The translations under genes and the position numbers were made by a program. Shown one piece after another: positions 10,279-16,583 of a DNA stretch of 41,404 nt (the stretch's first letter is position 1; each line of letters starts with the position of its first letter). The DNA lies in IMG/VR virus record IMGVR_UViG_3300022752_000143, positions 1 to 41,404 of that record; one strand, given 5' to 3'. Under the pieces are notes generated by a model. That model saw only the letters and a program-made list of their open reading frames with translations, was not told the origin of the DNA and did not search any database. Origin of the DNA: a virus.

Positions 10279-12180
10279 ATGAAAAAAATACTTCTAGGAT
10301 TATTTACGATAATTTCATTGAATGTATATGGACAGAATGGGAGAAACGAAGTTTTAGTTTCTCCCAACTCGTCATCTCCGTATTTTTTGATAGATACTGT
10401 TTTTACGTTAGGTAGTATTTTGAATGATACTACTGTTGTATACCTACACTATCATAACCCTACGGCAACTAACTATGCTGGCTTCCAAGTCAGATTTTTT
10501 TACCCTCAAGCGTCATTTAAACAACCGATTGTGAAATGGGGCCCGAGTGTAAGTTCATTGTCAACAAAATACGGCTCTTATTATAGTCAACCCGGTTGGG
10601 TAAACGCGACAGCTATTTATACTGGTAATCAAGCAATTTTTGATTTTCCAGATGGTGCTGTCTTCGAAGTGTTGTTACCACATTCAGCAACATTTAATCC
10701 ATCATCTGTTGACTCAATGAAAGTACAAGGTGTTCCAACCTATAATAATATAGCCACAACAACAAGTGGGTTTGATAATACTCTAGGTACATTCAATTAC
10801 GGAGGTCGTTTTAAAATGGATACTGTTCGTGTTCCTGTTACTGTTTTGAATGTAGATGGAACGCCCGCTCCAGAAATGCCTTTTGCATTTGATTATAAAC
10901 TCAAATCATCTCAGTTTTATGTAAGAGGTGATCGTTTTACCACAAATTCAAACGGTGTTGCATCCATTAAAATCCCGTACGATACTTCATTTTATAATGT
11001 GAAATTGGTATCCGACTTGGATACTTTGTCAGATAATTCATCAATCAATATTACAGATGCTTATCGTTTATCTGACATGAGTATTTACGCAGATACCGCA
11101 CAATCATATGAATTTCAACAAGGTGACGTAAATAGAAGTGGTACTTTGTCAGTGTCCGATGCTTACCTTATATTCAATCGTTTAGCGACAGGACGTTCAA
11201 CTTGGTCTCCTGTTGTTGCAAACGAATATAATGTAAGATATTATACAGCATCTGAATATGCTACAATAATTGCTAATCCAAACATATTTCAAACATCTAT
11301 TATTGGTACAAGAATGATAGATCAAAATTTGAATGGATCAAATGGTATTACATATTACGGTTATGTTTTAGGTGACGTGACAAACACAGGATTAAATAAT
11401 TTATCATTTCAAATTCAAAGAGTGAATAATCCAACTATTGGTACTTCTTACGTATTAGATGAAGGAACGATCTACCAGAATATTCAAGACTCCGTACAAT
11501 TTAGAATTCCTAAATTAACTATTTCAGATGATAACTCAGTAAATGTTGGTGTAACTTTTATAACACACGGAAATAAAGTCGGTGCGGCTCAAATAGGTTT
11601 AAAATTTGATCCAAATATCTTTAGATTTTCACAAATTAACGTAGGCCCAGAAGCAAGTTCTTGGAACTCATTTATTTCGACCAAATCTGGTGAAATTTTA
11701 TGGGGTGGGCATGAATCCAAAATGTCACCCTCAGTTATTACTAATCCAACACAAATGTTCAACTTTAAGTTTGATATTTTGAATTCAAATTGGGAACAGT
11801 CTCCGATCAGAATCACCAATAAAGCTGCTGGTAACGAAAAAGCTGAGGATTTAAATATTATTCCTTCACCTGTCGATGCTACGGTTATAAATGGAAGAAG
11901 AGCTAGAGATCTTGTAAATGAATTGGTTAACGGTTTTAGAGTTTATCCAAATCCAGTTGAAGATAATTTGAATATTGATTACTATCAAACAAATTGGGGA
12001 TATTTATATTACGAAATCTATGATTACACAGGTAAGCTATATTTTACAAACAAGGAATTTGTTACACAAAATGAAATTGTCACAAGACAAGTCAATGTGG
12101 ACAATTTGAAACCGGGTTTCTATTTTGTAAGATTAACAACCAATGAAAAACAAAAGATTCATAAAATAATTAAAAAATAA
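10279..12180 (+). CDS. Secreted T9SS cargo with dockerin- and cohesin-like regions
   Basis: 633 aa from the ATG at 10279. A Sec signal peptide (MKKILLGLFTIISLNVYG) is followed by beta-rich sequence. About residues 281-310 read GDVNRSGTLSVSDAYLIFNR, a dockerin type I-like calcium-binding repeat. Residues about 415-500 (VGVTFITHGNKVGAAQIGLKFDP) resemble a cohesin fold. The last 80 residues, from VYPNPVEDNLNI to LKPGFYFVRLTTNEKQKIHKIIKK, match a type A sorting domain of the type IX secretion system. The product should cross the outer membrane and be anchored on or released from the host surface. Finding this in a phage region is odd. Adhesion or receptor masking is possible. Confidence 0.8.
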   Translation: MKKILLGLFTIISLNVYGQNGRNEVLVSPNSSSPYFLIDTVFTLGSILNDTTVVYLHYHNPTATNYAGFQVRFFYPQASFKQPIVKWGPSVSSLSTKYGSYYSQPGWVNATAIYTGNQAIFDFPDGAVFEVLLPHSATFNPSSVDSMKVQGVPTYNNIATTTSGFDNTLGTFNYGGRFKMDTVRVPVTVLNVDGTPAPEMPFAFDYKLKSSQFYVRGDRFTTNSNGVASIKIPYDTSFYNVKLVSDLDTLSDNSSINITDAYRLSDMSIYADTAQSYEFQQGDVNRSGTLSVSDAYLIFNRLATGRSTWSPVVANEYNVRYYTASEYATIIANPNIFQTSIIGTRMIDQNLNGSNGITYYGYVLGDVTNTGLNNLSFQIQRVNNPTIGTSYVLDEGTIYQNIQDSVQFRIPKLTISDDNSVNVGVTFITHGNKVGAAQIGLKFDPNIFRFSQINVGPEASSWNSFISTKSGEILWGGHESKMSPSVITNPTQMFNFKFDILNSNWEQSPIRITNKAAGNEKAEDLNIIPSPVDATVINGRRARDLVNELVNGFRVYPNPVEDNLNIDYYQTNWGYLYYEIYDYTGKLYFTNKEFVTQNEIVTRQVNVDNLKPGFYFVRLTTNEKQKIHKIIKK

Positions 12181-12184
12181 AATT

Positions 12185-12586
12185 ATGTCAGAAGAAACAG
12201 AAAATGATGGTTCTTGGGGTGGTTTAAAGAAAACCATCGTAGGCACACTTGCCACAATCGTAACAGGTGGTGGTGTTTGGATTTCCACAACTTTATTTGG
12301 TGGTGGTGGAAACGATAGCGAAGAAACCAAAACAGAACAAGCGGCACCAGCGGCAGCACCAGTAATCAATCTTAATTTGGAAAACAACAACCAAAGTAAT
12401 GCTTCTGCTGGAAGTGGTGGTGGAACTACAGTAATCAGAGAAAAAGAAACTATCAGAGAAGTAGCACCAGCCCAATCAACTCCAGTTCCAGCAACTGCAA
12501 CACCTGCTGAAGAGAAGAAAGAAACACCTGCTGAAAGAATGAAAAGATTAAGAGCTAAACAATTAGAAAACGAAGAAGAAGAATGA
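12185..12586 (+). CDS. Single-pass membrane protein with low-complexity tail, 133 aa
   Basis: Acidic N-terminus, one Gly-rich transmembrane helix (about 17-40, IVGTLATIVTGGGVWISTTLFGGGG), then an Ala/Pro/Asn/Glu-rich tail and a charged end RMKRLRAKQLENEEEE. Unknown family. It sits 4 nt after the T9SS cargo gene, and its stop overlaps the CsgG-like gene by 4 nt (ATGA), so it is part of the same translationally coupled cassette. Confidence 0.6.
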   Translation: MSEETENDGSWGGLKKTIVGTLATIVTGGGVWISTTLFGGGGNDSEETKTEQAAPAAAPVINLNLENNNQSNASAGSGGGTTVIREKETIREVAPAQSTPVPATATPAEEKKETPAERMKRLRAKQLENEEEE

Positions 12587-16176: not shown

Positions 16177-16178
16177 CT

Positions 16179-16583
16179 ATGGATACATTAATATGTTATT
16201 TTATATCAAGTGTAATGACCCTTGCACATATGAATGGAGTGCCTGATACCAAATTAACGTATGGTGCTAAACAAATTGTTACAGAATTAGTTAACGAAAA
16301 ATATACACTTTGTGACGATGGTAGACCAATTACTGTTGAGATATTATCTATTGAGGCACCAACAAAAGGTATACGGGTAGGGCCATTTGAATTTAAACAG
16401 AAAAAAACAATCGTTAAAACAAAAATCACAATGAATGGTGTTGATTATTATGGAGAAGGTTCAAATAAAACATCCGTATCTTCAACTATATTACAATTAC
16501 AGGATGAAAATTTACCCTTTGAAAGAACTGAGTTTAGTTCAGCCTTAAGGAAAGCGTTATCAAATTCTTTTGGAAAAAATTAA
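16179..16583 (+). CDS. Unknown 134-aa protein ending the surface cassette
   Basis: Not recognised. Starts 2 nt after the PA14 gene and ends the rightward cassette. The N-terminus (LICYFISSVMTLAH) is moderately hydrophobic, so export is possible. The middle has a beta-strand pattern (ITVEILSIEAPTKGIRVGPFEFKQKKTIVKTKITMNGVDYYGEG) and the end is helical (SALRKALSNSFGK). Curli-type accessory function is only a guess from position. Confidence 0.55.
   Translation: MDTLICYFISSVMTLAHMNGVPDTKLTYGAKQIVTELVNEKYTLCDDGRPITVEILSIEAPTKGIRVGPFEFKQKKTIVKTKITMNGVDYYGEGSNKTSVSSTILQLQDENLPFERTEFSSALRKALSNSFGKN

Follow-up and report, generated by a model that had tools for sequence, protein, structure and literature searches.

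The Bacteroidetes phage Cryophage (GenBank MT820023) carries variable genes, including one for a PA14 protein, that end in type IX secretion system (T9SS) type A sorting domains, and its description proposes that this cargo hijacks the host T9SS and acts in superinfection exclusion (PMC7468147). T9SS cargo is also known from crAss-like phages (PMC6949934). Pelagiphages and the OM43 phage Melnitz carry phage curli, or type VIII, modules, for which roles in 'sibling capture', superinfection defence and lysis have been proposed (PMC7029224, PMC9599517, PMC9004378). Here we analyse the IMG/VR virus record IMGVR_UViG_3300022752_000143 over its whole length of 41,404 nucleotides (the window), in which six rightward open reading frames (ORFs), g1 to g6, occupy positions 10279-16583 with short gaps or overlaps, as an earlier sequence-only reading had described. 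T9SS cargo in a phage is not in itself new, given the Cryophage (PMC7468147) and crAss-like (PMC6949934) cases. With moderate confidence, and on computational evidence, we read the six genes as a cassette through which the phage would present interchangeable adhesins at the host surface, and in which a T9SS-exported scaffold would hold other proteins by cohesin-dockerin-like docking. The features of the cassette are:

10279..12180, + strand: g1, scaffold-like secreted protein of 633 amino acids, with signal peptide, N-terminal beta region, immunoglobulin (Ig)-like and dockerin-like module, cohesin and T9SS type A sorting domain
10834..11409, + strand: Ig-like and dockerin-like module of g1, residues ~186-377, related by homology to the tails in which slot proteins end (alignment)
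11500..11829, + strand: cohesin of g1, residues 408-517 (Pfam)
11941..12171, + strand: T9SS type A C-terminal sorting domain of g1, residues 555-631 (Pfam, TIGR04183)
12185..12586, + strand: g2, 133 amino acids, one membrane segment near the N-terminus and a long low-complexity tail (ORF, comparison of relatives)
12583..13275, + strand: g3, CsgG-fold protein with a lipobox (model, Foldseek, bridging homologues)
13265..14464, + strand: g4, exported protein with a small N-terminal domain (C32 and C87 invariant), a helix, a Gly/Ser linker and a predicted 12-strand outer-membrane beta-barrel at ~13841-14455 (model, alignment)
14464..16176, + strand: g5, occupant of the variable slot, in the window a secreted PA14 protein that ends in a dockerin-like tail (Pfam, profile comparison)
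15694..16173, + strand: C-terminal tail module of g5, residues 411-570, found across slot proteins and related by homology to the module of g1
16179..16583, + strand: g6, small CsgG-fold relative of g3 (homology to g3)

A tblastn search of 50,697 phage records with g1 matched a single lineage, Flavobacterium phage vB_FspM_immuto (immuto), at 29% identity and 99% coverage. In the 160 kilobase (kb) genome of this phage, which comes from the Baltic Sea and has Flavobacterium sp. LMO8 as its host, genes 13-19 form a block syntenic with the cassette of the window. Within IMG/VR, g1 matched 18 loci and a g3 profile matched 432 stretches, from which 79 loci were retained; several of the large syntenic contigs (110-228 kb) carry terminase and/or tail sheath genes. 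The g3 profile matched only 4 contigs among 84,980 bacterial and archaeal genomes, two of them phage-like (one with a terminase on the contig, the other with endolysin and holin-like genes) and two of cellular appearance, and the g3 family was present in 2 of 397 Flavobacteriaceae genomes, one of these being a phage-like contig of the same set of four. Since the isolate and the virus contigs carry the block and bacterial genomes are nearly devoid of g3, the cassette is, judging from these comparisons, a property of phages and not a common host operon recently borrowed. That the window is bacterial DNA or a misassembly is rejected, since immuto and the 110-228 kb virus contigs have the block in common, in agreement with the viral origin assumed by the sequence-only reading and with the IMG/VR record itself.

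The arrangement of the cassette is strongly conserved. Where the flanks of a locus are long enough, g1 precedes g3 in 85/85, g2 is at its place in 82/85, and g4 and g6 follow g3 in 84/84, while the full order g1-g2-g3-g4-[slot]-g6 is intact in 69 of the 71 complete loci; these counts represent 54 distinct g3 sequences. All six genes show purifying selection, with ratios of nonsynonymous to synonymous substitution rates (dN/dS) of ~0.03-0.14, which are rough values, dS being saturated in some pairs. The g1 start is the ATG at 10279, g2 and g3 overlap by 4 bases, and the best start of g4 is the ATG at 13265, 11 bases inside g3.

The C-terminus of g1 matches Por_Secre_tail (PF18962; E 2.5e-13, 50.5 bits against a cut-off of 27) and TIGR04183 (E 2.1e-11, 43.6 bits against a cut-off of 23), so the type A sorting domain noticed from the letters alone passes the hidden Markov model search proposed as its refutation. 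The domain was matched in 30/30 diverse g1 relatives, and its PNP motif (557-559) is invariant in the alignment. The N-terminus is hydrophobic in all 30 of the relatives and followed a cleavage-like pattern in 25/30 by a simple heuristic. Together these features point to g1 as type A T9SS cargo, which the T9SS and sortase of the host would carry outside and fix to the cell surface. Two large related phage contigs, G401 (record of L015) at 7090-7308 and G407 (record of L012) at 9322-9519, each encode another protein with such a sorting domain away from the cassette.

The cohesin of g1 falls under the Pfam cut-off in the window (E 9.7e-4, 19.8 bits against 24.1), but it was matched in 30/30 relatives with a best E of 8.4e-12, which bears out the cohesin-like part proposed earlier. 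In the dockerin-like module, the calcium-loop residues D283, N285, D294, D366 and G371 are invariant across the 30 relatives. In immuto, g1 is split into two genes, each with its own signal peptide: immuto_14 holds the N-terminal part and the dockerin-like tail module, and immuto_15 the cohesin (36.6 bits) and the sorting domain (36.7 bits). Fusion in one lineage and separation in another are classical indirect evidence that two halves interact, and the fused g1 of the window and the split g1 of immuto thus provide such evidence for the cohesin and dockerin-like parts. A compact variant at L102:5918-11954 encodes a g1-like protein that ends in the cohesin and has no sorting domain, followed by a 123 amino acid lipoprotein (CSDLE after the lipobox). 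Next come g2, both of the holin-neighbour genes, g3, a gene for a small exported protein and the endolysin; the lipoprotein is perhaps an alternative means of anchoring the scaffold.

The slot between g4 and g6 is hypervariable, with 45 distinct contents over 91 loci and zero to three exported proteins in each. In the 44 slot-region proteins scanned, Pfam identified heads of C-type lectin (12), PA14 (9) and laminin-G (3) type, matched SdrD_B in 5, and found no catalytic domain, one IS605/TnpB-type transposase gene excepted; the PA14 domain read earlier in g5 is confirmed (E 1.7e-12). Heads and tails are exchanged: residues 241-410 of g5 (the PA14 region) and residues 14-205 each recur with a different C-terminus. 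The immuto_13 protein joins a C-type lectin head to a slot-type tail. Each slot protein has one of two C-terminal tail types, which are homologous to one another (hhalign E 3e-14) and both homologous to the internal module of g1 (hhalign E 8e-16 and 3e-10). In the shared module, an Ig-like region of strands precedes a dockerin-like loop such as DLNTDNNFSVSDI, and loops of the form DxNxDN....SD, resembling those of dockerins, occur in many slot tails; tested against the two-loop dockerin, the tails have a single calcium loop. Direct comparison of the g1 and g5 segments of the window by BLAST was not significant (E 0.91), so the shared module is proven by profiles only, and these uphold the dockerin-like segment first noticed in g1 and g5 while extending it to exchangeable slot proteins with varying heads in general. 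The cohesin and dockerin-like parts of the cassette are likely to bind each other, as had been suggested for the g1 and g5 products. A hydrophobic, export-signal-like N-terminal stretch is found in nearly all g1, g4 and slot proteins.

A diversity-generating retroelement acting on the variable lectin slot is rejected, as 14 records, the isolate included, contained no reverse transcriptase. At L017:16234-17160, an IS605 OrfB/TnpB-type protein (Pfam 2e-24 and 1.2e-24) is encoded inside the slot between two adhesin genes and is a possible agent of slot reshuffling.

The envelope proteins of the cassette include g2, whose single membrane segment near the N-terminus agrees with its earlier description as a transmembrane protein, and the related pair g3 and g6. 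In an AlphaFold2 model of g3 (predicted local distance difference test, pLDDT, 63), the secondary structure runs strand-helix-strand-helix-three long strands-helix, and Foldseek against the PDB returned CsgG for all of the top 25 matches (E 1e-7 to 2e-5, probability 1.0), thus placing it ahead of the PelC, LptE and PqiC lipoproteins. The best match in a viral structure library was an annotated phage CsgG. With the VIA aligner, CsgG scored a Z of 10.8, level with other lipoproteins in the superfamily, and PelC, PqiC and LptE, which have this fold superfamily in common with g3, reach VIA Z values of 8-9. On this model g3 has the CsgG fold. Neither g3 nor g6 of the window matched Pfam CsgG (PF03783), which was reached only by distant bacterial relatives (3 of 41 members), among them a homologue in an Ignavibacteriales genome that exceeds the cut-off (28.8 bits). 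Profile searches with g3, g4 and g6 against PDB sequences gave no match, and hhalign found none for g3 and g6 among five curli CsgG proteins from Flavobacteriaceae, so the link of g3 to CsgG rests on the fold and the bridging homologues. CsgG channels have two transmembrane hairpins per subunit, which form an oligomeric barrel; the long modelled strands of g3 are three (133-151, 154-171 and 177-193), and a fourth was not seen. The lipobox makes g3 a lipoprotein in the window, whereas its immuto homologue has a plain signal peptide and no lipobox. The 'CsgG-like lipoprotein' of the sequence-only reading therefore holds for fold, bridging homologue and lipobox, while Pfam CsgG misses it and the channel role was not borne out. 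The same reading left g6 as unknown; it is a shorter homologue of g3, a smaller CsgG-fold paralogue. Two cellular contigs, L100:9974-17410 (Ignavibacteriales) and L101:9008-11325 (Bacteroidota), carry tandem g3-like and g6-like CsgG-fold genes near a barrel-looking gene, a possible bacterial ancestor system.

The model of g4 (pLDDT 60), built from an alignment without the immuto row, runs from a signal peptide and small N-terminal domain through a helix and a disordered linker into twelve strands, giving the 'barrel-like' protein of the earlier description a predicted 12-strand outer-membrane barrel. Its best fold alignments are to autotransporter translocators (VIA Z 19.6 to NalP) and FapF (Z 13.9), without any sequence similarity found to either. 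Like the FapF exporter and the translocators NalP, EspP and EstA, g4 would have a 12-strand barrel preceded by a helix; unlike them, it has a Gly/Ser linker of at least 60 residues between helix and barrel, and the helix is placed with low confidence. A fold by itself demonstrates no function, and channel activity of g3 or g4 is putative; as a membrane conduit the modelled barrel of g4 is a likelier candidate than g3.

The adhesin-display reading starts from what the comparisons directly provide, namely domains, homologies, synteny, module shuffling and purifying selection; from these we infer an export route, binding of cohesin to tail, a timing and a pay-off. The g1 product would leave the cytoplasm by Sec and then pass through the host T9SS, to be anchored outside the cell as a scaffold. 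Its cohesin would grip the dockerin-like tails of the exchangeable carbohydrate- or ligand-binding slot proteins, perhaps also that of g1 itself. In the outer membrane, the g4 barrel may combine with g3 and g6, perhaps joined by g2 on the inner-membrane side, into a unit for exporting or holding the slot proteins. The cassette would probably be made late in infection, and the likely pay-off would be that infected cells adhere to neighbouring cells or to particles, bringing progeny into contact with hosts ('sibling capture'); alternatively, the cell may be shielded from competing phages.

Several observations weigh against this reading. The slot proteins carry no T9SS sorting domain that would account for their passage across the outer membrane; g2 has no assigned function; the g3 and g4 models have a mean pLDDT of only ~60; and holin-like neighbours allow a role in lysis. 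The Dockerin_1 match of g1 is also weak, lying below the cut-off in the window (E 0.08) and reaching E <=0.1 in 12/30 relatives (best 0.0013).

The neighbours that allow a role in lysis lie just upstream of g1:

9692..9925, + strand: small membrane protein of 77 amino acids, 'holin-like' by inspection
9927..10271, + strand: membrane protein of 114 amino acids (comparison of relatives)

The first of these matched no significant Pfam or PHROG family. A homologue of it lies beside or within the cassette in 55/76 loci, in some immediately before an endolysin, and an endolysin is found near the cassette in 39/76. The 114 amino acid protein is encoded immediately 5' of g1 in most relatives, and elsewhere between g2 and g3 or g5 and g6. 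Because the cassette sits by holin-like and endolysin genes, late expression is suggested.

The same neighbours favour a lysis or release module, in which g2, g3 and the barrel g4 would open the outer membrane late in a spanin- or pore-like manner while the secreted proteins loosen the surface, a role of the kind proposed for phage CsgGF pores (PMC9004378). The four-base overlap of g2 and g3 and their topology fit a two-component spanin, which pairs an overlapping inner-membrane protein with a small outer-membrane lipoprotein, yet g3 has 230 amino acids, a CsgG fold and, in immuto, no lipobox. In immuto, whose cassette adjoins ribonucleotide reductase and replication genes, neither a holin-like nor an endolysin homologue turned up nearby. 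Lysis also explains neither the sorting domain and cohesin in 30/30 g1 proteins nor the exchangeable lectin heads, and we regard it as improbable, though the best placed of the alternatives.

Hypervariable lectin, PA14 and laminin-G heads recall the variation of receptor-binding proteins, and g1 and the slot proteins might accordingly be adhesins decorating the tails of phage particles, helped by the envelope proteins. Virions assemble in the cytoplasm, whereas nearly all g1, g4 and slot proteins have the export-signal-like stretch; the cassette is usually far from the sheath gene (29-137 kb in most large contigs, ~10 kb in one) and beside replication genes in immuto, and no PHROGs tail family was found for g1, g5 or g6, making parts of the virion an unlikely explanation. 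A host-derived, cellulosome-like glycan-binding system that captures nutrients or polysaccharide for the infected cell would suit the carbohydrate-binding folds among the slot heads, the pairing of cohesin and dockerin as in cellulosomes, and the phage-borne T9SS hydrolases known from Cryophage (PMC7468147). The lack of catalytic domains in the 44 slot-region proteins, the transposase apart, and the presence of the g3 family in only 2/397 Flavobacteriaceae, which does not suggest a common host system, leave it little probability. That the genes are separate accessories travelling together with no joint machine, as the shifting positions of slot and holin-like genes might suggest, is equally doubtful given the five-gene order intact in 69/71 loci, the homologous module in g1 and slot proteins, and the paralogy of g3 and g6.

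Elsewhere in the window, two adjoining paralogous proteins of ~325 amino acids with no assigned function are encoded upstream of the cassette (7463-9421, + strand), and relatives in L003-L007 cross-match both. Directly past the cassette on the opposite strand (16601-18823, - strand) lie four tandem genes for paralogue-like proteins of ~190 amino acids, similar by eye, the one scanned matching no family. Two chaperone genes adjoin each other, one for DnaK/HSP70 (37632-39503, + strand; Pfam 2.9e-246, phrog_22485 8.8e-234) and one for a ClpA/ClpB-like AAA protein (35464-37473, - strand); neither was seen in the fetched flanks of related loci, most of which are too short. The Bacteroidota promoter motif TTTG-N17-20-TANNTTTG has 10 copies on both strands of the window against 3.1 expected, a number equalled in 1/100 shuffles, and this excess is in line with a Bacteroidota host. 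The window scan placed no copy of the motif within the cassette, and sigma-70 and terminator scans gave no signal above chance.

Phage T9SS cargo and phage CsgG are already known separately, and what appears new here is their modular combination: we found no report in the openly accessible literature of a joint, conserved and modular T9SS/cohesin/CsgG-fold cassette, nor any relevant report there of phage cohesin or dockerin parts. Tentatively, the cassette may represent an undescribed class of phage machine, with a T9SS-anchored cohesin scaffold, exchangeable lectin-type heads and its own CsgG-fold and barrel unit, giving a phage-specific adhesin coat. If the display reading is true, Bacteroidota phages rebuild the exterior of the infected cell by modular, cellulosome-like display through the host type IX secretion machine. 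Whether phage secretion and curli genes serve sibling capture, superinfection exclusion or lysis, a matter of debate ever since the pelagiphage studies, would then be directly testable, because the isolated phage immuto holds a full cassette whose parts can be tested one by one. Flavobacteriia would also gain a natural repertoire of exchangeable heads and tails for use in surface display.

Cohesins and dockerins are modules of cellulosomes, the cohesins on scaffoldins and the dockerins on enzymes. The cassette resembles the bacterial cellulosome in placing a cohesin on an anchored scaffold and dockerin-like modules on exchangeable proteins; it differs in that no catalytic domains were found, the slot tails have a single calcium loop, g1 has an insert between its loops, and binding is a prediction. 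The cassette resembles the phage curli modules in that one operon encodes exported proteins and a CsgG protein of the outer membrane, the latter a predicted one here. Those modules have recognisable CsgG and CsgF and sometimes CsgA/B repeats, while in the cassette CsgG is recognised by fold and bridge only, Pfam matched no CsgA/B curlin repeats, CsgF or CsgE in g1-g6, and the T9SS and cohesin parts are added. In the passages of the Cryophage report consulted, neither a cohesin nor a CsgG-like gene is mentioned, and no search of its sequence was aimed at them (PMC7468147). Cryophage bears the sorting domain on the variable proteins themselves, whereas here it is carried by a conserved scaffold and the variable proteins bear dockerin-like tails.

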